Below are positions 6,758 through 18,500 of a DNA stretch of 64,000 bases, in pieces. Below the pieces are notes generated by a model. The model saw only the letters and a list, made by a program, of their open reading frames with translations. It did not search any database and was not told the DNA's origin. A program made the position numbers and the translations under genes. This DNA is from an uncultured Bacteroidales bacterium (GTDB taxonomy: Bacteria > Bacteroidota > Bacteroidia > Bacteroidales > UBA932). The DNA is taken from the NCBI GenBank assembly GCA_944326245.1, contig CALVDF010000010.1, forward strand, positions 1 through 64,000. The letters run 5' to 3'. Every line of letters starts with the position of its first letter. The first letter of the stretch is position 1.

Positions 6758-7531
6758 ATGATAGAGACAAAAGTATCCAGAGGTATCATAAGTACCTATT
6801 TCGACAAACTTCAGGACTGCCTCGAGCTGGACGCCGCAATAGTCGGCGGAGGTCCCTCGGGCATAGTTGCCGCCTACTATATGGCAAAGGCCGGGCTCAA
6901 GGTCGCACAGTTTGACCGCAAACTGGCTCCCGGCGGAGGCATGTGGGGAGGAGCCATGATGTTCAACCAGATCGTCATCCAGGAAGAAGCCATGCACATC
7001 GTGCGTGATTTCGGAATCAACCATACTCCATTCGAAGACGGCCTCTACGTGATGGACTCGGTGGAAAGCACCTCTTCCCTGCTCTACCATGCCGTCCACG
7101 CAGGAGCGCGCATATTCAACTGCTACTCGGTAGAGGACGTCATATTCAAGGACAATAAGGTAAGCGGAGTGGTGGTCAACTGGACTCCGGTACTGCGCGA
7201 AGGCCTCCATGTAGACCCTCTCAACATCCTCGCGAAAGTCGTAGTGGACGGAACCGGCCATGACAGCGAGATAGCTGCGACCGTAGCCCGCAAGAACGGC
7301 ATCCGCCTGGCAACAGAGACCGGCGGTGTCATAGGAGAACGCTCCCTGGACGTTACTTCAGGCGAGCAGGAAGTAGTAAACGGCACCAAGGAGATATATC
7401 CCGGACTGTACGTCTGCGGCATGGCTGCATCGGCAGTGTCCGGTACCCCGCGCATGGGTCCCATCTTCGGCGGAATGCTCCTGTCCGGCAAGAAAGTTGC
7501 AGACGAGATCATAGCACGCCTCAAAAAATAA
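6758..7531 (+). CDS. thi4: Thi4-family thiazole synthase, sulfide-dependent (His) type
   Basis: Makes the ADP-thiazole carboxylate precursor of thiamine from NAD and glycine. The 257-residue protein has the FAD/NAD Rossmann motif VGGGPSG (residues 29-35), the Gly-rich GGGMWGG loop (59-65), and a C-terminal SGTPRMGP segment. At the position where yeast and plant Thi4 carry the sulfur-donating Cys it has His151 in GLHVDP, the residue found in archaeal enzymes that use free sulfide catalytically. It sits directly after thiC under the same riboswitch. No thiG, thiH, thiS or thiF is in the window. Such genes are often annotated ribose-1,5-bisphosphate isomerase or ribulose-1,5-biphosphate synthetase; the thi context argues against that here. 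Confidence 0.88.
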   Translation: MIETKVSRGIISTYFDKLQDCLELDAAIVGGGPSGIVAAYYMAKAGLKVAQFDRKLAPGGGMWGGAMMFNQIVIQEEAMHIVRDFGINHTPFEDGLYVMDSVESTSSLLYHAVHAGARIFNCYSVEDVIFKDNKVSGVVVNWTPVLREGLHVDPLNILAKVVVDGTGHDSEIAATVARKNGIRLATETGGVIGERSLDVTSGEQEVVNGTKEIYPGLYVCGMAASAVSGTPRMGPIFGGMLLSGKKVADEIIARLKK

Positions 7532-7550
7532 CTTCATAACCCTTCAATAA

Positions 7551-7597
7551 AGAGACACGGGGACGTAGCCAAAAGCTCCATCCCCGTGTTTCTTTTT
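7551..7597. terminator. Bidirectional terminator between thi4 and the second thiE-like gene
   Basis: A GACACGGGGA arm (7554-7563) pairs with TCCCCGTGTT (7581-7590). A T run follows on the plus strand (7591-7597) and A-rich sequence precedes it, so it can serve both convergent operons. Confidence 0.85.
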
Positions 7598-7607
7598 CCA
7601 GGCACAC

Positions 7608-8201
7608 TCACCTGAGCAGACTTTCCAGACGCCGGACCAATGCTACGGCATCACCGTCTTCACTATACTGCCCCCATACGGAACCGAGCACAGCAGCTCC
7701 ACCGAAACCGGCCTCACGGACCAGTCCTATATTGTCAGGCGAGACACCGCCAAGGGCAAACACCTTGTCGTCCACGATACCTTTCATCGCGGCATCCTTC
7801 AGTTCCCCCATGGAAAACCGGGAACCGTAACCCTTCTTGGAAATGCTGTCAAATACAGGACTCAAAAACATATAGTCAAAACGGCCCTTGCCGTAAGAAA
7901 CTTCCGACAGGGAATGGCACGAACAGCTGACCAAACCTTCGTATCTTTCAGGAGGTCCGGGATTACGGCTATTGACATGTACTCCGCCTACCCCGTACTG
8001 TACGGCAAGCCCATGACAATCGTGCAGGGATATGGCGTTCCTGTATCTTTCAGGAATGCCTGCCAGCAACCGCCGCATGTCGTTCTCGTCTGCACCCGGC
8101 TTGCGCAGATGCACTCTCCATGCCCCCGCATCCAGAAGAGATGCTACCGCATCAGCCTCACCGGGAAGAAAGCAGGGCTCTGTAATTACAATTATCCTCA
8201 T
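7608..8201 (-). CDS. ThiE/TenI-like protein
   Basis: A second member of the thiamine phosphate synthase/TenI fold, 197 aa. It keeps HLRKPG, the SPVFDSISKKGYG loop and a GGV phosphate loop, but the aspartate-rich Mg/pyrophosphate region of true ThiE is altered: HDCHG and GVHVNSRN replace the NDR and GVHLGxxD pattern. It could be a thiazole tautomerase (TenI-like), a specialised ThiE, or a salvage enzyme. Its ATG overlaps the thiD stop by 4 bases, so the two are translationally coupled, which supports a thiamine role. Confidence 0.75.
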   Translation of the reverse strand: MRIIVITEPCFLPGEADAVASLLDAGAWRVHLRKPGADENDMRRLLAGIPERYRNAISLHDCHGLAVQYGVGGVHVNSRNPGPPERYEGLVSCSCHSLSEVSYGKGRFDYMFLSPVFDSISKKGYGSRFSMGELKDAAMKGIVDDKVFALGGVSPDNIGLVREAGFGGAAVLGSVWGQYSEDGDAVALVRRLESLLR

Positions 8202-9010
8202 CTGTAAAAATGCCTCAGAGGGCCATGGCCGTGACCGATGCGGAGCGATGCCGCTGCGACAATGGCGTTGTGGACATATCCCACAGCCGACTGCACAGCC
8301 TCACGCAAAGGCAGGCCACTGCCTAGAAATGTAGCGATAGCGGATGACAACGTACATCCCGTTCCGTGAAGATTGGCAGTCAGCACACGTTCGGAAGTAA
8401 TGTGTACCAGACCGTCCATATCGCACAGCACATCCGTGGATTCGGACACAACCTGGCCTGAAGTGCCGGACAGGTCCCCGCCCTTGACCAGGAATGCGCA
8501 TCCGTAGCGGTCCCGAAGCATAGCCGCGGCACGGTCCATATCGTCGACAGACGCTATTCTGAAACCGGCAAGACGGGATGCCTCGTCAATGTTGGGAGTC
8601 ACCAGATGTGATTTCGGAAAAATCCTGGAACACAGAGTGTCTACAGCCTCCGGCAATGTAAGTGAATCCTTGCTGGTAGAAACCATGACCGGATCGGTAA
8701 CCACATAAAGGACAGGATGGGCGGCAAGCCTGGAGGCGATGGCCTCCACTATCTGGGAAGTTCCGGTCATTCCTATCTTCACGGCATCCACCGCCAAGTC
8801 GGACATAACAGCATCCATCTGTGCGGCGACAAGCTCAGGCTTCATATATTCCACATACCGTACACCTGTAGTGCTCTGCACCGTAACCGCGGTCACCGCT
8901 GCCGCAGCATATCCGCCGCAGGCCGATATGGCTTTGATATCAGCCTGTATTCCGGCCCCTCCAGAAGGATCGGAACCGGCAACCGAGAGTATTATGGGGT
9001 AATCTTTCAT
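8198..9010 (-). CDS. thiD: Hydroxymethylpyrimidine/phosphomethylpyrimidine kinase
   Basis: Phosphorylates HMP and HMP-P to the diphosphate used by ThiE. The 270-residue ribokinase-fold protein begins with SVAGSDPSGGAGIQADIK (substrate and P-loop region), has TDPVM in mid-protein, and ends with the anion-hole motif LHGTGCTLSSAIA, whose Cys is characteristic of ThiD. It is followed by the ThiE/TenI-like gene with a 4-base overlap. Its promoter's -7 box ends only 4 bases before the ATG, predicting a leaderless or nearly leaderless mRNA. No thi-box is visible, so it seems independent of the TPP switch. Confidence 0.95.
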   Translation of the reverse strand: MKDYPIILSVAGSDPSGGAGIQADIKAISACGGYAAAAVTAVTVQSTTGVRYVEYMKPELVAAQMDAVMSDLAVDAVKIGMTGTSQIVEAIASRLAAHPVLYVVTDPVMVSTSKDSLTLPEAVDTLCSRIFPKSHLVTPNIDEASRLAGFRIASVDDMDRAAAMLRDRYGCAFLVKGGDLSGTSGQVVSESTDVLCDMDGLVHITSERVLTANLHGTGCTLSSAIATFLGSGLPLREAVQSAVGYVHNAIVAAASLRIGHGHGPLRHFYR

Positions 9011-9084: not shown

Positions 9085-10365
9085 CTACCAGACGTTCAGC
9101 GGACGGCCGGCAACGAGAGTATGGGCAGCGTTCTTTACCTTCTCGATAACTGCCTCATTCTCAACATCGCTGAGAACCTCGTCAATAAGTTCGACAATAG
9201 TCTCCATATCCTTTTCTACCAGACCTCTGGAGGTGATGGCGGGAGTACCTACGCGGATACCGGATGTAGTGAAAGGAGTACGGCTGTCGAAAGGAACCAT
9301 GTTCTTGTTGACAGTGATATCGGCACGCACGAGGGTCTTCTCGGCCACCTTTCCTGTCAGATCAGGGAACTTGGTGCGGAGGTCGATCAGCATCAGGTGG
9401 TTGTCGGTACCGCCGGATACGATCTTGTAACCTCTGTCGATGAATGCCTGAGCCATTGCCGCAGCATTCTTCTTCACCTGCATCTGATACTCCTTGAACT
9501 CAGGCTGCAGTGCCTCGTAGAAAGCCACTGCCTTGGCACCGATGCAATGCTCCAGAGGACCGCCCTGGATACCGGGGAAAACGGCTGAATTGATCAGCTG
9601 GGACATCATCTTGATCTGGCCCTTCGGGGTCTTGAGTCCCCAAGGGTTCTCGAAGTCCTTACCGATAATGATGGCACCTCCACGGGGTCCGCGGAGAGTC
9701 TTGTGAGTGGTAGTGGTGACAATATGGGCATACTTTACAGGGTTGTCCAGCAGACCTGCTGCGATAAGTCCTGCAGGATGAGCCATATCTACCATGAAGA
9801 TAGCGCCTACCTTGTCTGCTATCTCGCGCATCCTCTTCCAGTCCCACTCACGGGAATATGCGGAGGCTCCGCCGACAATCAGCTTGGGCCTGCACTCAAT
9901 AGCTGTCTTCTCCATCTCATCATAGTCCACACGGCCTGTCTCCTCATTGAGCTTGTACGCAACGGGATGATAGTTGATACCTGACATGTTGACCGGAGAA
10001 CCGTGGGTAAGGTGTCCGCCATGGGCAAGGTCAAGTCCCATGAAAGTATCACCGGGCTTGAGGCATGCCATGAAAACAGCCATATTGGCCTGCGCGCCTG
10101 AATGAGGCTGCACATTGGCAAACTCGGCACCATAAAGCTCTTTGAGACGGTCGATGGCCAGCTGCTCCACCTGGTCCACTACCTCGCAGCCGCCGTAATA
10201 GCGGGCTCCGGGATACCCCTCAGCATACTTGTTGGTCAGGCAGGAACCGAGTGCGGCCAGAACATTGTCGCTGACAAAGTTTTCAGAAGCGATGAGCTCT
10301 ATGCCGTGAAGCTGCCTGCTCTCCTCCTTCTTGATTAGTTCTGATATTTGAAGATCCTGTTTCAT
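9085..10365 (-). CDS. glyA: Serine hydroxymethyltransferase
   Basis: PLP enzyme interconverting serine and glycine with transfer of a one-carbon unit to tetrahydrofolate. The 426-residue protein is full length: [10 protein letters not shown] and [16 protein letters not shown] near the N-terminus, DMAHPAGL before the PLP site, and the lysine motif [15 protein letters not shown] around residue 225. Single gene with its own consensus promoter and terminator. It supplies glycine, a substrate of the neighbouring Thi4; the adjacency may be coincidence. Confidence 0.98.
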
Positions 10366-10440: not shown

Positions 10441-12027
10441 TTACAGTGCCACAATCAGTGAAAGATTAATGCCTGTATATGCCGGAGTTATACGGCATAC
10501 ACCGCCTGAACAGAGGTAGCCTTCCTTGAAACGTCCAAAGTTCAGAGCAGCCCTTACCTTTGAGTATGAATAGCTTACGCTTCCGTTGATATAGTGGGTC
10601 TTCGTATCACCGTAGTTCCACATGTCCTGCACAGACACACTCCATCTGGGGGCAAAACTGTATTCCAGCAAAGCTGCTGCCCAGTTCTTGTGATCCTGCT
10701 TGGTGAACAGGTGCTGAAGCTCAAGCCTGAGGGAATTCTTCCTGTCGAACTTGTAGGTCATGTCGGCCACCACTGTATGGGACTTCCATATGGATGACGG
10801 ATCATCAGATGAAGGAGCGTGGTTGTAAGTCTGCCATGTATAGAAAAGTATCAGCTTGAAATCGCTGCCGAACCACCTCTCGACATCCACTGTAAGATCC
10901 CTGAACAGCAGCTTGTTGTTCACTTCGCCTGTAACATAGTTAGTGATATCACCGTAGTAAGTAGAGAAGTTGGCATGTACCTTCATGCCTTTCTTGCCGC
11001 CCATGACCGAACCTCTGCGGAAGTTGTAGTAAAGGTCCGCCTGACCGCCCATCTCATCGGACTGTGTCGTGTACGGATTAAGTGTCGCCAGTGAATATGT
11101 ATGCTGCTGAGTAAGTGCGGGCACATAGTTGATATAGGTACATATGTCATTGCTGTTACGCGAGCCTTGCAGGAAAGGATTGTGCAGCTTGCGGAATGTT
11201 ACAAGACCTCCGAACCCATAACCGGTATAGCCAAAATCAACTTGAATGGCCTGACTCCTGGTTGTATCCATCATATTGTACATTCCCGGATCACTTCTGC
11301 GGCTCATATACTCCCCGCTCAGACGAAAACCGCCATAGCCTAAGGCCGTACGTACAGAATAACCTGGTGTATGAGCTTTTACTGAAGGATTGGAAGACTG
11401 GCCTACAGGCTCATACTTATCCAATACGCTTCCTTCAATTGTCCAATCGAAGTTCTCCCACTGCGCTGCACGGGAAACCGACAACGATACATCTACCCCG
11501 GACACGAAATTGGAAGTATACTCTCTTATGTCACGGATACGTCCATATATTCCTCTGATTGTAAGAAAATCTCCGAATGTATAGCCGACTTTCACTCCCT
11601 GTATTGCACTGTTGATTCCAAGCGTTCTGTCTTCATATGTACGGAAAAGCAGACCGTTTCCGAACTGTTCGTATATACTGCCAAGGCGTATGTCCCATCC
11701 GCCGGCATTATACCCTGCGTAGATATCATATCTGGTAAACATCTCCGCCTGCAACCCCATTCCGGAAAAATATCCCAACAGGGGAGGATAATAACCTTCC
11801 AGCTGCATTCCGGCATAGAAACCCTTCCAGGAATAATCCATCTTCAGATAGTTGTTGGATCCCATCCTGCCGTCGGGCGCTATGGCCCCAGCCTTCTCGT
11901 CGTTGAAATAGTAGGTAGTATTTGTCTCCAGGCCCGCAGAAAAGTTACCCTTGTCCTCATTCTGGGCAAAGGCAACTATTCCCATAAGGGCCAGAAGAGC
12001 TACCGCCAAAGTACATCTTCTGAGCAT
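10441..12027 (-). CDS. Outer-membrane beta-barrel protein, DUF6029-like
   Basis: Predicted outer-membrane protein of 528 aa with an N-terminal signal peptide (hydrophobic core then AFAQ). The rest is rich in alternating aromatic and glycine strands such as YYPPLLGYFSGMG and GYGGFRLSGEYM, ending in a final hydrophobic strand, as in a large beta-barrel. From memory it resembles the Bacteroidetes family DUF6029, whose function is unknown. It is the last gene of a thiol-redox operon (DsbD, Omp28-like, TlpA-like), with 3 bases between it and the TlpA-like gene. A role in handling or exporting substrates of that redox system is inference only. Confidence 0.7.
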   Translation of the reverse strand: MLRRCTLAVALLALMGIVAFAQNEDKGNFSAGLETNTTYYFNDEKAGAIAPDGRMGSNNYLKMDYSWKGFYAGMQLEGYYPPLLGYFSGMGLQAEMFTRYDIYAGYNAGGWDIRLGSIYEQFGNGLLFRTYEDRTLGINSAIQGVKVGYTFGDFLTIRGIYGRIRDIREYTSNFVSGVDVSLSVSRAAQWENFDWTIEGSVLDKYEPVGQSSNPSVKAHTPGYSVRTALGYGGFRLSGEYMSRRSDPGMYNMMDTTRSQAIQVDFGYTGYGFGGLVTFRKLHNPFLQGSRNSNDICTYINYVPALTQQHTYSLATLNPYTTQSDEMGGQADLYYNFRRGSVMGGKKGMKVHANFSTYYGDITNYVTGEVNNKLLFRDLTVDVERWFGSDFKLILFYTWQTYNHAPSSDDPSSIWKSHTVVADMTYKFDRKNSLRLELQHLFTKQDHKNWAAALLEYSFAPRWSVSVQDMWNYGDTKTHYINGSVSYSYSKVRAALNFGRFKEGYLCSGGVCRITPAYTGINLSLIVAL

Positions 12028-12030
12028 AAA

Positions 12031-12516
12031 TTACTGCAACTTTAGTATTTGATCAAAAAGTTCCTCTTCACTTCCAGGGGTATAACCTGTATGGGTATAT
12101 ACCACATTGCCGTTTTTGTCCAGGACAAACACTGTAGGCTGGGTCTGCACGTTCATGGCACGCTTGAGATCCCCGTTCTCGTCCAAAAGGATGGTAAAAT
12201 CTGTCCAGCCACGACCATTGACCATAGGCTTTACTTTTGCACTCGAGCGGGAATCATCCGTGGACACTGCAACAACCTTGAACTGAGCCTCCTCAATCCA
12301 GTCAGGATAAGCATCATTCACAGCTCCAAGCTCTTGTAGGCAAGGCTTGCATGTGGTATACCAAAAAGAAAGGATAACTGGTACACCTTCATCAAGAATA
12401 GACAGGGAACTAACAGGATTGCCGTCTATATCTTTAATTTCCACTGCAGGTAAAGCTTTCTGTGCCCACGATACAAATGAAATCAGACTTAGGGCAAGTA
12501 TTAATATATGTTTCAT
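12031..12516 (-). CDS. TlpA-like periplasmic thioredoxin
   Basis: Secreted thiol oxidoreductase of 161 aa. It has a signal peptide ending near VSWAQ, then a thioredoxin fold with the redox motif TTCKPCLQ (CKPC, about residues 56-59) and the cis-proline loop TQPTVFVLD. It lies between an Omp28-like lipoprotein and the outer-membrane barrel, downstream of dsbD, which would supply electrons from the cytoplasm. Partners are probably cell-envelope proteins with reducible disulfides; cytochrome maturation is another family role, but no ccm/ccs genes are nearby. Confidence 0.88.
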   Translation of the reverse strand: MKHILILALSLISFVSWAQKALPAVEIKDIDGNPVSSLSILDEGVPVILSFWYTTCKPCLQELGAVNDAYPDWIEEAQFKVVAVSTDDSRSSAKVKPMVNGRGWTDFTILLDENGDLKRAMNVQTQPTVFVLDKNGNVVYTHTGYTPGSEEELFDQILKLQ

Positions 12517-12526
12517 CCTCTATACT

Positions 12527-13948
12527 CTATTTTTCGTACTCAAATACTATGAATGAATTCACCGGTATGTCTACAACGTTGTCAACGATTGTTCCGAAGT
12601 CATGACCGCTGATTATAGGGCTGGAGTATGAACCAGGCCTGTAAACAACCACCAGAACATGAAGGTTGTCGTTATTCTCCACGTAAGAAGGTATTGCACA
12701 AGTATATGTAAGCTCAGTAACATTATTGGCGCTCAACGATACAGGCTCACCCCACATCTCTGTCATCTCTTCCCTGATTATGTCATTGTTCTCGTAATCG
12801 CTTCCACCTGCACAACCGGGGAAAGTAAGCTTGTCTTCAAGGAGGAACACACTTACCTTATACTCGGCTGATTCTGTAGATGCAATACCGACAAGCACTT
12901 CAACATTGTTTCCATTGATACTTACTGATCCTGCAACTCCAGTATGGGCCGGAAGTTCCTCTACGGCCTCGTTGCTAAGACTTACGAATGTGCTGGCGTA
13001 AGCAGCGCCTTCAATCAAGCTATAATTGTTCCATATCATGGTCGGAATAAAACCTTGTATGATTCCGTCATAATACAATTCCTCATAATATGTATCGCCT
13101 CCTTCCCACTCAGCAAGACCACCACCCTTGGATTTGGACATATATGTACCTATTTCTATACGGTTGGGAACCTCCTCCATCGCCTCATGGATGTATTCAC
13201 TTGCAGAGTAACAAGGTCCGCACCATGTTGCCGAGAATTTCGCAAGATATGACCTTCTGTAGAACTGACGCGTAAAATCTGCGACAAGCTCACCCATCTG
13301 AGATACGGTAAAATAGGACGAAATATCGCCGGCACCTCTTACTTCAATAATGCCATCACGGATTTCTCCGTCATTGGCAGCAACTGAGACATTTACTGTA
13401 TAAGTTTTAAACTTTGAATATGTAGTATTGTCTGACAGCAGAACAGAATCTTTGGCAATCTCTCCGACAGTTATCCAGTCCACTGCAGAAACTACCTCGA
13501 CATCTACATTACTATTGAATACGAATGAAATCTCAGACTCACTACTGGGAACAGCCACAGACTCTGACGCAAGCACCATACCGGGGGTAACATCCTGCAC
13601 CACATAATATTCGGTCGGGGTATCGCCTTCATTGATACGGAACGAAGCCACCTTCTCTGTCAATTCAGGATTAGCTTCAAGAACAGTGATGGTAAATGTA
13701 GCCTGACCTGCCACACCGGAGAGTGGCTGCACTGTAAACCATGTATTGGCGTTGCTGACTTTCCAGTCTGATTTCATGTCCAGAGTTACTTCAACGACAG
13801 CGTTGGCCTCGTTTGGAAGCATGATGGTAGAACCTGTGATGGCGGGCTTGTCCGGTCCATCCGGACCCGGTTCTACGCAGGAAGATACGGCAACTGTCAT
13901 GCCCAGGAGGCATACAGAAGCAAAAATCAGTTCTTTAATCTTTCTCAT
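12527..13948 (-). CDS. Omp28-like lipoprotein with BACON and thioredoxin-like domains
   Basis: Surface or periplasmic lipoprotein of 473 aa. The lipobox VSSC at about residue 24 follows a hydrophobic signal. A BACON-type beta-sandwich region (SDWKVSNANTWF) is followed by a second similar module and then a thioredoxin-like domain with ATWCGPCYSASEY (WCGPC). The C-terminal part resembles Omp28-related proteins of Bacteroidetes. Lying between dsbD and a TlpA-like gene, it is a likely client or relay of the DsbD electron pathway at the outer membrane. Whether its WCGPC is a reductase or an oxidase cannot be told from sequence. Confidence 0.8.
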   Translation of the reverse strand: MRKIKELIFASVCLLGMTVAVSSCVEPGPDGPDKPAITGSTIMLPNEANAVVEVTLDMKSDWKVSNANTWFTVQPLSGVAGQATFTITVLEANPELTEKVASFRINEGDTPTEYYVVQDVTPGMVLASESVAVPSSESEISFVFNSNVDVEVVSAVDWITVGEIAKDSVLLSDNTTYSKFKTYTVNVSVAANDGEIRDGIIEVRGAGDISSYFTVSQMGELVADFTRQFYRRSYLAKFSATWCGPCYSASEYIHEAMEEVPNRIEIGTYMSKSKGGGLAEWEGGDTYYEELYYDGIIQGFIPTMIWNNYSLIEGAAYASTFVSLSNEAVEELPAHTGVAGSVSINGNNVEVLVGIASTESAEYKVSVFLLEDKLTFPGCAGGSDYENNDIIREEMTEMWGEPVSLSANNVTELTYTCAIPSYVENNDNLHVLVVVYRPGSYSSPIISGHDFGTIVDNVVDIPVNSFIVFEYEK

Positions 13949-13977
13949 GATAAATTGATTTTAGAATTTGTTTTGGA

Positions 13978-15963
13978 TTATTCGTTATTGTTGTAATTTT
14001 CAAGACCGCCTTTCAGAAAACGGACAAATGCATCTATGTCCAGATTGTAGCTTCTTGGCTCAGCCAGCAGCTGACCGCCACGTCCTTCCAGCACATAGCA
14101 CGGCTGGGCATTGACACCGTAGTCGGTATATGCTATGTGTGAATTGATCTTGCCGATGGACTTGAGGGTCCTGTCTCCGGCCACTATCCAGTCGCTTTCG
14201 TCTGCCTCCTTCTTGTCGTCGCAATAGAGGGCCACTATGACATAGTCGTTGCTCAGTATGTCCAGAACCTGAGGGTCGGACCACACGCGGTTCTCCATCT
14301 CACGGCAGTTGACGCATCCGTGCCCCGTAAAATCGATGAACAGGGGCTTGCCTACCTTCTCCGCATACTCCTTCGCTTCGTTCAGCTCGAAAAAGCCCTG
14401 AAGTCCATGAGGCAGATGCAGGAAATCACTGTACTTGGGAGCCTTGTCCATACCGGTCTGCGATACCGCCGATTCGCCGGCACCGGTACTGCGTACAGTT
14501 GCTGTCGTCCCGCCGAGAATGAAATCCTGTGTAGTCATCGGAGGCAGATAACCGGAGAGTGCCTTCAAAGGAGCGCCCCACATTCCGGGAATCATATACA
14601 CTACGAAAGAAAATACCGCGATGACCAGCGTGAGACGTCCCACTCCTATGTGCTTAACCTCATCATCATGGGCAAACCTGATCTTGCCGAGAAGATAGAA
14701 TCCCATCAAGGTAAATACCACAATCCATATTGCCAGATAGACCTCCCTGTCCAGCAGCCCCCAGTGATAAGTCTGGTCTGCAACTGACAGGAACTTGAAG
14801 CCGAATGCGACCTCTACGAAAGCGATAACCACTTTCACACTGTTGAGCCATCCTCCGCTCTTGGGGAGCTTCTTGAGTATTGACGGGAAAAGTGCAAATA
14901 TGGTGAACGGCAACGCAAATGCAACGGAAAATGCAAGCATGGTGACGATAGGCTCCCAGAACTCTCCCTGAGTAGACTTGATAAGCACTCCGCCGACTAT
15001 AGGACCGGTACAGGAGAACGACACCAGAACAAGTGTAAGGGCCAGGAAAAATATACCGCCGAAACCTTTGGTATCAGCCTTGGAATCCGACTTGTTTACG
15101 AGCTTGGAAGGCATGGTGATTTCAAAGGCGCCGAAGAACGAGGCTGCAAATATCATGAACACAATGAAAAATATGATATTGGGCAACCAGTGCGTAGACA
15201 GCCAGTTGAAGATGTCCGCAGTAACGGCGTCACCTCCAACGATCCTGGTTATGAAAATTATGGCTGCAATCGGAAGAGTATAGAGTGCAACAATGAAAAG
15301 ACCGTACATGCCGGCACGCATACGTCCGCGCGCAGGACCTCCCTCACCTTTGAGGAAATATGAGACAGTCATAGGAATCATCGGGAAAACACACGGTGTA
15401 AGCAGAGCCACGAATCCCCAGATTACAGCCTCTATAATCAGAGCCCAAATACTTTTGCCTCCATCTCCCTTGCCTTCAACCGAAGCAGACGACACGGTAA
15501 CGTCATTGTCGGGAATACCTATAACGAACTCCTGGTCAGCCAGCGGCATGCAGTTGTTCTCGTCACAAGTCATCCACTCTACATACACATTCACTACCGC
15601 ATCTTTTTTCCTGAGACGGACATCCTGGTAGAAAGTAACACTATCCTCGAAGTAGCCTACCTCCATCATGTATATGTCATCGTAGTACTTGTACGGTTCC
15701 CTTGATATCTTCATTTCCCCTTCTTTAAGGGCCCTTTTCTGATCGGCGATGTTGAACTCCACAATAGTTGCATTCGGCCCGAAATCAGTCCTGAGCGTAT
15801 CATAGATGTGCCACGTCGAATCTATGGCTGCCGTTACCGATACCCTGTAGAGATCCTTCCCGATCTGCCTTACATCTGTCTTCCAATGCGCATGCTGCTC
15901 CTGGGCCTGAACAGCAAGCACAGACAGCAAAACTGAAAGGAATAATGTCAAAATCCTTTTCAT
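13978..15963 (-). CDS. dsbD: Thiol:disulfide interchange protein DsbD
   Basis: Membrane protein passing electrons from cytoplasmic thioredoxin to the periplasm. All three redox modules are visible in the 661-residue product. After a signal peptide (LAVQAQ) there is an N-terminal domain with a CDENNC pair. The CcdA-like membrane domain, about eight helices, carries its two cysteines in LLTPCVFPM and FSCTGPIVG. The C-terminal thioredoxin domain carries GHGCVNCREM. It is first in an operon with two secreted thioredoxin-fold proteins and an outer-membrane barrel. A promoter lies 60-90 bases upstream. Confidence 0.95.
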   Translation of the reverse strand: MKRILTLFLSVLLSVLAVQAQEQHAHWKTDVRQIGKDLYRVSVTAAIDSTWHIYDTLRTDFGPNATIVEFNIADQKRALKEGEMKISREPYKYYDDIYMMEVGYFEDSVTFYQDVRLRKKDAVVNVYVEWMTCDENNCMPLADQEFVIGIPDNDVTVSSASVEGKGDGGKSIWALIIEAVIWGFVALLTPCVFPMIPMTVSYFLKGEGGPARGRMRAGMYGLFIVALYTLPIAAIIFITRIVGGDAVTADIFNWLSTHWLPNIIFFIVFMIFAASFFGAFEITMPSKLVNKSDSKADTKGFGGIFFLALTLVLVSFSCTGPIVGGVLIKSTQGEFWEPIVTMLAFSVAFALPFTIFALFPSILKKLPKSGGWLNSVKVVIAFVEVAFGFKFLSVADQTYHWGLLDREVYLAIWIVVFTLMGFYLLGKIRFAHDDEVKHIGVGRLTLVIAVFSFVVYMIPGMWGAPLKALSGYLPPMTTQDFILGGTTATVRSTGAGESAVSQTGMDKAPKYSDFLHLPHGLQGFFELNEAKEYAEKVGKPLFIDFTGHGCVNCREMENRVWSDPQVLDILSNDYVIVALYCDDKKEADESDWIVAGDRTLKSIGKINSHIAYTDYGVNAQPCYVLEGRGGQLLAEPRSYNLDIDAFVRFLKGGLENYNNNE

Positions 15964-16021: not shown

Positions 16022-16054
16022 CAAATGTAAGCATTTTGTCCCGAATTTTGCAAG
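16022..16054 (-). promoter_or_regulatory. Promoter of the dsbD operon
   Basis: The minus strand reads CTTG (16051-16054), 21 bases, TACATTTG (16022-16029), predicting a leader of about 50 bases before dsbD. Confidence 0.65.
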
Positions 16055-16149: not shown

Positions 16150-18438
16150 CTATCTGCGCAGGAGAACCCTGTCTTCAGAAGATGTCATATGAAGATTCAT
16201 TGTCAGAGCGGCAGACAAATTCCGTCCACTCTGAATTATATCCTCTATCGGAGAGACTCCGTCTCTTTCCGGTGTAAATTTCTGCCTGCAGGAAGGGCCG
16301 TAGTTGCCGTCAGCATCCACGGCTATACCTATAAGTATGTATTCCTTGTCCCAGTCAAGTATCCACTGTGCACTTTCCCTGTCAACCTGACCGAGTCCCT
16401 TGTCAACAAGGTTGTAGATGACATCCTCCTCGCTGAATACTGCCGGATCTTCACTTCCGTCAGTGTATGAGAATACCGAATAGTAATAATGCGCAGCCGA
16501 GCCAGATACCGTTGCCTTGACGTCCGCATATGCTTTGCCGCGGAATGCGGCATACTTGCCCTGGTCGTAATTGTAGAGTTCGTCCCCGTCATAATACTTG
16601 AGTCCGAGTTCCACTGCTGCATCTGAGACTATGGCCTCCGGAGTAGTGAATTCCTCGAACACAAAGTCTGTAGCATACTCACCGTCAGTCATGTCTATTG
16701 CGACTGCCATCACTTTATACCGGCTGTCCGGCGTAAGTGTCGTCCAGCCGTAAGAGTCATTGCCCCTGACCACTGTATACTGCCAATATTCCAGGGCGCT
16801 GGATACATATCCCATCTCTATCTGATATTCGATATTCTCCTGGAACATCTGGCGTATTTCTTCCTCTGTCATGGCTGCCTCGAAAAGATCCCAGTGATAC
16901 GACACACTTTGGTCCGAAGGAACCACGGTAATGTCCACGCTCCTGGATTTGAGATTGTTTATCTCGAATTCGAATGTACACTGCGAGGGGTCACCGGCAG
17001 AGGATGTCTTGAAATCCACCCTGCTCAGGCCTGTCGTCCAGGCCCCCCCGTCAAATCCGAATGCAATGGCGACATATTCCGTATCAGGATTCAGACCTTC
17101 AAAAATCCTTTCCCTGTCGCCGGTTACCACTTCGGATGCCACGTCATAATAATCCACAATCGCCCACATCAGATATTCGTCATCCCAACCGGCAATAGTC
17201 GCAGCAGGCTGAATGCCTACCCAATAGGGGTCGTCGTTTGTAACAGAAGTGACAAATTTCGCCGATGTGGAAGTAATGTCCGTAACCTCCAGTGTGATTG
17301 TATTGTCAGACTCCAGACCCGGTGCCTGAAATGCCTCCCAGGCTATCTCGGATGTAATGTTGCAATCCTCGTCCCATGCAAATACTCCGATCCAGTAATT
17401 TGACCTGGGCTCCAGTTCTTCTTCGAATTCAAGCCTTCCTTTAACAGAGTAAAGATCATATATCATGTCCGGTGTATAACCCGAGTACTTCCAGTAATTG
17501 AGAAGATACTCCAGATATCCTTCCACTGCATCAGGCATAGCAGCCCCATACAGGTCGTACTCCATCTGGCCGAGAATCAGGTAATAATACTTCACTTCGG
17601 TATCCGAAGGGCTGATGACAATATCTGCCATGGCACCCTTTCCCGTACCGGTATACTTTGTCTCAACAGTTATGTCAAAAGAGACCTCCACACTTTCTAC
17701 GGCCCTGGTGCGTGCCGATGCCCTTGCTATGGGCGTAAGCAGCTCTGAACCGTCCGCCGATACACCGAACACGAAAACGCAATATTCAGTATCAGCCTCC
17801 AGATCGCTGAAAGTATCGTCATACACTCCGGTAATGAGGAATGACGCCAGATAATCCTCAAGGGTTGTGCCATACATATCGGCCATCGACTTGTAATAAT
17901 TCATGGCATCCTCGAAAAGTACGTTGTCATCCTCGAATCCGGCCATACTCTCCATATCTGAAGACAGCACCAGATAAGTCATCGTTCCGTCCGACGGAGT
18001 CACCGACACGTGCATGGAATAGGTGGTAAGACTGTCTATATCTATCTTGAAATAGCTGTTGCCCATCTCGTCCTTTCCTGCCTGCAGAATAGTAAATTCC
18101 AGCGACTGACCTTCATACTCAAGACTTACAGCGGCAGTTCTGGAAGCCTCGTCAGGATTCTCGGCTACCGCAAACGTCACCTCTCCGTATGTACCGGTAA
18201 AGAAATCACTGATCCACTCCGCCTCGGTTTCCGTTATCACTTCCCCGGTTGCCGTAGGGTTATTGATCTCATACTGTATTTTGAAGTTGCCCCCTTCCCA
18301 TGGAACTGCGATATTCCCTTCCGTTACCGCGACAAGCTCCGGCTGCTTGGTCGTCTCTTCCGGCTTCTCGCATGACGTAACGGCCAATGCGAGCGACAGT
18401 ATTGCCAGCACTGTCGAAAATTGGATTTTTTTAATCAT
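16150..18438 (-). CDS. Large BACON lipoprotein with tandem FN3-like repeats
   Basis: Cell-surface lipoprotein of about 762 aa; function unknown. The lipobox AVTSC follows a signal starting MIKKIQF. A BACON-like domain (IAVPWEGGNFKIQYE) comes next, then four or five related modules of about 110 residues. Each opens with a PSD motif (TPSDGTMTY, SPSDTEVKYYY, VPSDQSVSYHW), contains a short Tyr-rich helix, and closes with a strand such as DTEYCVFVFGV or DTEYVAIAFG. The frame is open to 18498, but a predicted promoter occupies that stretch, so the start is the ATG at 18438, or 18450. It may bind glycans or protein; the neighbouring TPR/AraC regulator is a candidate controller. Confidence 0.75.
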   Translation of the reverse strand: MIKKIQFSTVLAILSLALAVTSCEKPEETTKQPELVAVTEGNIAVPWEGGNFKIQYEINNPTATGEVITETEAEWISDFFTGTYGEVTFAVAENPDEASRTAAVSLEYEGQSLEFTILQAGKDEMGNSYFKIDIDSLTTYSMHVSVTPSDGTMTYLVLSSDMESMAGFEDDNVLFEDAMNYYKSMADMYGTTLEDYLASFLITGVYDDTFSDLEADTEYCVFVFGVSADGSELLTPIARASARTRAVESVEVSFDITVETKYTGTGKGAMADIVISPSDTEVKYYYLILGQMEYDLYGAAMPDAVEGYLEYLLNYWKYSGYTPDMIYDLYSVKGRLEFEEELEPRSNYWIGVFAWDEDCNITSEIAWEAFQAPGLESDNTITLEVTDITSTSAKFVTSVTNDDPYWVGIQPAATIAGWDDEYLMWAIVDYYDVASEVVTGDRERIFEGLNPDTEYVAIAFGFDGGAWTTGLSRVDFKTSSAGDPSQCTFEFEINNLKSRSVDITVVPSDQSVSYHWDLFEAAMTEEEIRQMFQENIEYQIEMGYVSSALEYWQYTVVRGNDSYGWTTLTPDSRYKVMAVAIDMTDGEYATDFVFEEFTTPEAIVSDAAVELGLKYYDGDELYNYDQGKYAAFRGKAYADVKATVSGSAAHYYYSVFSYTDGSEDPAVFSEEDVIYNLVDKGLGQVDRESAQWILDWDKEYILIGIAVDADGNYGPSCRQKFTPERDGVSPIEDIIQSGRNLSAALTMNLHMTSSEDRVLLRR

Positions 18439-18469
18439 AGCGTGATACATTTTTGAATGAATTTTGATG

Positions 18470-18500
18470 CTAAAGTATGACAAGGAAGTATCACGCACAA
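18470..18500 (-). promoter_or_regulatory. Predicted promoter of the BACON lipoprotein gene
   Basis: The minus strand reads TTG (18498-18500), 20 bases, TACTTTAG (18470-18477), one base off TAnnTTTG. It overlaps the upstream ATG at 18498 and therefore argues for one of the later starts. Confidence 0.55.

Follow-up and report, generated by a model that had tools for sequence, protein, structure and literature searches.

A conserved TlpA, DUF6029 barrel and Omp28 trio of Bacteroidota as a candidate outer-membrane thiol-disulfide relay

What does a large outer-membrane barrel do when it is encoded directly beside two secreted thioredoxin-fold proteins? The question is raised by positions 10441-15963 of a 64,000-nucleotide (nt) stretch from an uncultured Bacteroidales bacterium (contig CALVDF010000010.1 of assembly GCA_944326245.1), referred to here as the window. 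In this locus, dsbD, an Omp28 lipoprotein gene, tlpA and a gene for a 528-amino-acid (aa) barrel lie head-to-tail on the minus strand (Table 1), separated by gaps of 29, 10 and 3 nt, respectively. A preliminary description had viewed the four genes as one operon under a single promoter and as a complete path for cytoplasmic reducing power, with the lipoprotein at the cell surface and the barrel as client or exporter. Our comparisons indicate that the core unit is almost certainly a trio of TlpA, barrel and Omp28, and that the evidence best supports reading it as an envelope electron relay that includes a surface thioredoxin.

The barrel belongs to Pfam family DUF6029 (PF19494; E 4.5e-173, 577 bits against a cut-off of 27, residues 7-527). 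The preliminary description had overlooked this affiliation, the cysteine pair described below and the position of DsbD outside the conserved core. For comparison, 119 genomes were drawn from the family of the window and 395 from its phylum, among which DUF6029 was present in 22 and 98, respectively. Neighborhoods were analyzed for 83 barrels, comprising the window, 22 family copies and 60 phylum copies, with stop-to-stop open reading frames (ORFs) assigned by profiles; this set does not include seven of the 76 further genomes with strong and 11 of the 21 with weak DUF6029 matches, nor a family match on a contig of 4 kb (G059). In addition, we used the best 80 of 592 confirmed relatives, termed named loci, whose records are mostly from Flavobacteriaceae (Mesonia, Winogradskyella, Aequorivita, Flavobacterium and Myroides) and which were retrieved by motifs other than CX4C.

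The sole conserved cysteines of the barrel, Cys506 and Cys511, form the motif C-x-G-G-x-C-R. Every intact DUF6029 barrel examined (180) carries a CX4C pair, mostly CxGGxC, in its last hairpin. The pair was detected in 81 of the 83 neighborhood barrels, the misses being one frame-broken (L113) and one truncated copy (L115), and in all 80 named loci. Among 20 extra loci picked from weaker matches it was found in 19, often as CTSGIC or C-x-N-G-x-C, and the remaining one (L227) was a false match.

Gene order around the barrel is similarly stable. A TlpA gene was located at most 400 bp from 69 of the 83 barrels, in 64 cases on the same strand, and 71 barrels had one within 3 kb; in one further case TlpA is fused to the barrel. 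For the remaining 11, a TlpA relative is encoded elsewhere in the genome (E 1e-24 to 1e-46, loci paired to genomes by hand). None of the 83 barrels was therefore found without a thioredoxin partner. In the named loci, TlpA is located directly upstream of the barrel in 78 of 80, and the remaining two end at a contig edge. As the 2.49-Mb genome of the window contains 13 AhpC-TSA matches, chance adjacency of TlpA and barrel should be rare. As for Omp28, 54 of the 83 barrels have a copy at 400 bp or less and 73 have one within 3 kb; the other ten are all from genomes that have an Omp28 match elsewhere. The 80 named loci include 73 with Omp28 within 3 kb of the barrel. A genome with three DUF6029 copies was also encountered, one of which (L046, G118:C17) has Omp28 directly upstream and a TlpA relative ~12.6 kb away.

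At the genome level, DUF6029, Omp28 and TlpA (E<=1e-20) are all found in one identical set of 22 of the 119 family genomes. Several of the Omp28 genes in this set reside on other contigs than the barrel, so that the co-occurrence is not accounted for by linkage alone. Both states exist within single genera: all three families are missing from G062 and G098 in genus g1, from G010 in g10 and from G022 in g22. Across the phylum, strong DUF6029 matches (E<=1e-15) were present in 77 of 395 genomes, 76 of which match Omp28 versus seven of the 318 others (Fisher 6e-72, phylogeny ignored); the sole exception, G241, has an Omp28-like ORF beside its barrel (L233). A TlpA match was obtained in 72 phylum genomes, all of them with DUF6029, and in none of the 297 barrel-less genomes, while 26 of the 98 DUF6029 genomes, mostly from distant groups, lack a TlpA match at the cut-off used. 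The three families thus appear, with near certainty on this gene-content evidence, to be kept or lost together even when unlinked, and the cluster is conserved phylum-wide. Neither of the two conditions named in the preliminary description as refuting it, a poorly conserved cluster or a barrel independent of thioredoxin partners, was borne out.

DsbD is the exception. The window protein matches DsbD_TM (PF02683; E 2.4e-17, 63.4 bits against a cut-off of 27.1) and Thioredoxin_7 (E 6.5e-11), and all six canonical cysteines of the preliminary description can be read in CDENNC, the transmembrane TPCVFP and SFSCTGP, and CVNC, plus two others. It scores below the NCBIfam subfamily NF001419 (100.9 bits versus a cut-off of 330) and is therefore called DsbD-like. 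DsbD was identified within 3 kb of only 12 of the 83 barrels and within 4 kb of none in the 80 named loci. Long DsbD relatives (E<1e-200) exist in the barrel-less genomes G001, G003, G010 and G022; barrel-less G062 and G098 contain short or partial ones only. Its rarity near barrels and its presence in barrel-less genomes rule DsbD out as part of a conserved four-gene unit: of the proposed complete path, the dsbD gene is present here, and its membership of a conserved unit is not borne out. DsbD would rather be a general supplier that feeds the relay in this genus from outside the core.

The lipoprotein is identified by an Omp28 domain (PF11551; E 4.6e-16, 59.6 bits against a cut-off of 34.9) and two BACON stretches (E 9.6e-11), with a score below the curated cut-off for the Omp28 lipoprotein subfamily NF033782 (25.6 versus 150 bits). 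Its structure model shows a thioredoxin fold at about 227-330, with Pro302 opposite C243/C246, followed by a beta domain to residue 465; the BACON part is poor and the whole-model mean pLDDT is 67.6. All 54 aligned Omp28 lipoproteins have Pro302, and CXXC was found in 100 of 101 and 113 of 113 Omp28 ORFs in two ORF sets. The best structural match is HBP35 of Porphyromonas gingivalis (5y1a; Z 22.6, root-mean-square deviation (rmsd) 2.7, 223 aligned residues), followed by 2axo (Z 17.3), with the Omp28 domain structure 2r2c at Z 9.4 (99 aligned). Omp28 proteins occur in two export forms, as lipoproteins and as proteins with a type IX sorting domain, which suggests two predicted routes to the surface. 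A second Omp28 lipoprotein in the genome of the window (472 aa, WCQFC; L049 6482-7900, minus strand, G000:C7) is unlinked to the barrel and adjoined by two other lipoprotein-like ORFs.

TlpA matches Pfam AhpC-TSA (E 2.8e-19) and has the AhpC-TSA/Redoxin domain, CXXC and signal peptide of a TlpA/ResA-like protein, with scores below the cut-offs of the NCBIfam subfamilies ResA, StoA and TlpA. CXXC was present in 72 of 72 and 78 of 78 TlpA ORFs of the two sets. The window thus encodes two thioredoxin-fold partners with different active sites, WCGPC in the BACON lipoprotein and CKPC in TlpA, as initially described. In L089, a single 667-aa frame encodes TlpA (WCVPC) followed directly by a barrel without its own signal peptide, indicating that TlpA and barrel can work as one protein with TlpA at the periplasmic N-terminus.

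A divergent group provides further insight into which elements are constant. All nine fetched loci (L219-L226 and L228) encode barrel and TlpA without Omp28, with the barrel motif CTSGIC in eight and CNAGIC in one, and in each of them the barrel has nearby one or two further ORFs whose CXXC sites are CPHC-type or similar. Three of these ORFs were run against Pfam and all proved to be redoxins; one (L219 3309-4169) has a type IX sorting tail (Por_Secre_tail, 2e-9), and another (L219 4148-4690) reads by eye as a lipoprotein. The constant elements are therefore TlpA, the CX4C barrel and a surface-type thioredoxin-fold protein, rather than Omp28 itself. Elsewhere, a secreted protein of ~245 aa recurs near barrels (L079, L080, L081, L086, L096, L100, L125, L130, L133 and others); it combines a type IX sorting tail with a C-x(3-4)-C motif, for example CFGDLCY or CWEQCY. 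As its profile also catches type IX sorting domains, raw match counts were set aside; we counted 40 ORFs across 38 of 84 loci and, among the 80 named loci, 36 ORFs in 35, with C-x(2-5)-C in 36 of 40 and 35 of 36, respectively. It is possibly a further surface partner or client.

An AlphaFold2 model of the barrel based on 67 sequences (pLDDT 88.9, pTM 0.84) contains 24 long strands, with turns alternating between a short side (mean 4.0) and a long side (mean 14.1). The cysteine pair is placed in a hairpin (503-507/510-514) between the final two strands and, assuming the usual arrangement with both barrel ends in the periplasm, is predicted to lie on the long-loop, extracellular side. The two best-conserved loops, 119-141 and 501-516 (mean 0.70), are on the same side. 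Among the matches present in the VIA-align lists, the top one was the FimD/PapC usher 3ohn (Z 18.7, rmsd 4.5, 376 aligned, 10% identity), with Occ porins at Z about 17-18; searching PDB sequences with the DUF6029 profile yielded chance matches only. Pfam detected no usher, plug, N- or C-terminal domain of pilus ushers, DUF6029 alone covering the protein. A role as a TonB-dependent transporter was rejected since neither a plug domain nor a TonB-dependent barrel profile was matched (Pfam, E<=1).

Table 1 Features of the proposed relay locus and their coordinates in the window
Feature	Position	Strand	Basis
DUF6029 outer-membrane beta-barrel, 24 predicted strands	10441..12027	-	Pfam and AlphaFold2 model
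CSGGVC motif, Cys506-Cys511, hairpin between last two barrel strands	10495..10512	-	family CX4C
TlpA-like periplasmic thioredoxin, N-terminal signal peptide (by eye)	12031..12516	-	AhpC-TSA, Pfam
CKPC active site of TlpA, Cys56 and Cys59	12340..12351	-	read from sequence
Omp28 family lipoprotein: lipobox Cys24, two BACON domains, thioredoxin fold ~227-330, Omp28 domain ~334-465	12527..13948	-	Pfam, model
CGPC active site of Omp28 lipoprotein, Cys243 and Cys246	13211..13222	-	invariant in 54/54 aligned Omp28 lipoproteins
Lipobox cysteine Cys24	13877..13879	-	invariant in 54/54 aligned Omp28 lipoproteins
DsbD-like inner-membrane reductant conductor, six canonical cysteines	13978..15963	-	Pfam and sequence
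Possible -7 element of operon promoter (weak), TAnnTTTG	16022..16029	-	upstream of dsbD, motif scan

We propose that the trio constitutes an outer-membrane thiol-disulfide relay, a reading that we regard as evenly poised between right and wrong; the existence of an obligate module is nearly certain from gene content, and its chemistry is what we infer. TlpA would be reduced by DsbD or a similar conductor and hand the equivalents to the hairpin cysteines of the barrel by dithiol-disulfide exchange. The barrel would then offer them at its outer face for uptake by the CXXC of Omp28 proteins, which would reduce disulfides of surface or external targets. FimD/PapC pilus ushers pass folded domains through 24-stranded barrels; TlpA could therefore possibly reach the hairpin by entering a lumen of that size, and the L089 fusion would fit such entry. 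On this basis, we tentatively suggest that DUF6029 might be the outer-membrane counterpart of DsbD, with TlpA possibly docked in the lumen and the CX4C hairpin serving surface thioredoxins. Because of its invariant CX4C pair, the barrel could join the chemistry and is probably more than a mere client or exporter, the roles suggested in the preliminary description, of which the relay with a surface lipoprotein is the part that we retain. A cytochrome-type (Mtr) conduit was rejected, the active sites of the window proteins being WCGPCY and TCKPCL with no CXXCH.

Several points weigh against the relay. Its weakest step is the meeting of periplasmic TlpA with cysteines at the outer end of the barrel: with the hairpin predicted to be extracellular, contact would need TlpA in the lumen or a conformational change. 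Model confidence at the hairpin is moderate (block 501-510, pLDDT 78), the invariant pair may also be a structural disulfide, and the fold matches of the barrel to ushers and Occ porins are generic. The fusion is a single case among ~180 barrels. Seven genomes match Omp28 without a strong barrel, three of them at E>1e-4, and since the genomes are related, Fisher values overstate the evidence. Finally, the mature start of the window lipoprotein, CVEPGPDGPD, only weakly resembles the surface-lipoprotein export signals SDDDD, published for Bacteroides fragilis, and SDDFE (consulted parts of PMC5080379); several named Omp28 relatives, for example one with CSSDSSDDSGG, fit better.

Among other explanations, a redox-gated or thiol/metal porin ranks first, although we consider it unlikely. 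The barrel would carry low-molecular-weight thiol/disulfide, copper or heme/iron species, with TlpA and Omp28, one on each side, keeping the hairpin cysteines reduced or stripping the ligand; a small thiol diffusing through the barrel is a form of the same idea. Its width, its conserved outer-side loops and the redox partners on both sides would suit such a porin, and HBP35, the closest fold to Omp28, is reported to bind hemin, with slow growth of the mutant in the absence of hemin (PMC2907840, consulted in part). However, the hemin site of HBP35 is located outside its CXXC in that account, no TonB box, plug or metal-binding domain was found in the barrel with Pfam, and no recurrent metal or transporter gene was recognized among neighbor clusters that were counted, not annotated.

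It is more doubtful still that the barrel is only a client, whose C-terminal disulfide TlpA and Omp28 would reduce, isomerize or form during assembly while its own job lies elsewhere. LptD is a known case of outer-membrane assembly under disulfide control, and the single invariant cysteine pair, together with reduction supplied by TlpA and DsbD, would agree with such a role. Yet genomes mostly hold one barrel versus one to eight Omp28 matches (eight in G278), many unlinked, and a surface-type, sometimes type IX-exported protein would be oddly sited for an assembly factor. That the barrel exports Omp28 to the surface, as Slam does for surface lipoproteins, seems very improbable. Near-perfect co-occurrence and the adjacent lipoprotein gene would be expected of such a pair, but some Omp28 proteins bear a type IX sorting domain, and an exporter would need neither an invariant CX4C nor a dedicated TlpA. 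Moreover, the cargo would be a different protein family in the divergent group, where the replacement of Omp28 points to shared redox chemistry rather than to export of Omp28. Least credible is a polysaccharide-export porin, suggested in passing in a study of OPX-linked barrels that reports HHpred similarity of DUF6029 to Wzi-type barrels (PMC9603273, consulted in part). The alignment of the alginate porin AlgE to the barrel model (Z 15.2) would favor it, but fold likeness is common to many barrels and the constant partners are thioredoxins. That study was the only open-licence text found to name DUF6029, as a numbered family with no assigned function.

The proposed relay resembles the DsbD/CcdA system, which conducts from cytoplasm to periplasm and feeds CcmG/TlpA and DsbC, in that membrane cysteines would reduce thioredoxin-fold acceptors; TlpA is a usual acceptor of that system, and a DsbD gene is part of the window operon. 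DsbD/CcdA, in contrast, consists of helices in the inner membrane, whereas the system described here would use an outer-membrane beta-barrel with one CX4C pair and a surface-type acceptor. Pilus ushers, the closest barrel fold among the listed matches, share 24 strands with the DUF6029 model, but they have pilus genes alongside, unlike DUF6029 with its redox neighbors. We know of no outer-membrane barrel that acts as a conduit in thiol exchange, and none came up in the open-licence literature searched; nor do we know of a described system that moves reducing power across the outer membrane. In P. gingivalis, PG2173 (2r2c) and the protein of 2m72 are sequence relatives of the window Omp28 and TlpA, respectively; 2m72 is probably PG_2175, and PG_2174 is presumably a DUF6029 member. 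PG2173 has been termed an Omp28 lipoprotein (PMC9722745) and PG_2174 listed as an uncharacterized vesicle protein (PMC4335976), with no function or partnership described in the consulted parts of either paper. HBP35 has the thioredoxin plus beta-domain architecture of Omp28 at 14% identity to the window protein. Found on the cell surface, it shows thioredoxin activity in vitro, and its authors consider the role of the thioredoxin domain unknown (PMC2907840). Two surface thioredoxins of Muribaculaceae are proposed for oxidant protection or iron uptake in a 2026 preprint (PMC13404670, consulted in part). In the open-licence literature, we found no report of reducing equivalents crossing the outer membrane and nothing on Omp28 with TlpA, a surface lipoprotein with TlpA or Omp28 with type IX secretion; hits for Omp28 with thioredoxin mostly concerned Brucella Omp28, an unrelated name.

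Regarding transcription, the adjacency of the four genes stands, while a single promoter is only weakly fitted. TAnnTTTG, the Bacteroides-type -7 consensus, is found upstream of dsbD and nowhere on the minus strand within 10441-15963 in a motif scan, a layout that may fit one promoter ahead of dsbD; this evidence is weak because the whole window contains 37 such motifs versus 25 expected. Further upstream lies an ORF for a 782-aa BACON/fn3-like lipoprotein (16150-18498, minus strand), whose listed GTG start is probably too early, an internal ATG being likelier. On the other side, a thiamine-like cluster of Thi4-like, ThiE-like and ThiD-like ORFs (6758-9010) is followed by a glyA-like ORF (9085-10365), all named by eye.

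How surface thioredoxins such as HBP35 stay reduced is a question left unanswered in the literature that we consulted. Should the relay prove wrong, the obligate trio and its invariant barrel dithiol would still call for explanation. If it is right, a dedicated barrel of this kind, with its redox cysteines, would represent a new class of outer-membrane protein, giving DUF6029 a testable role, and Bacteroidota with the trio would reduce extracellular disulfides at the cost of cytoplasmic reductant. With the barrel in about a quarter of the sampled phylum genomes, the trio may have a widespread influence on redox chemistry at the surface, on protein folding and on nutrient capture.

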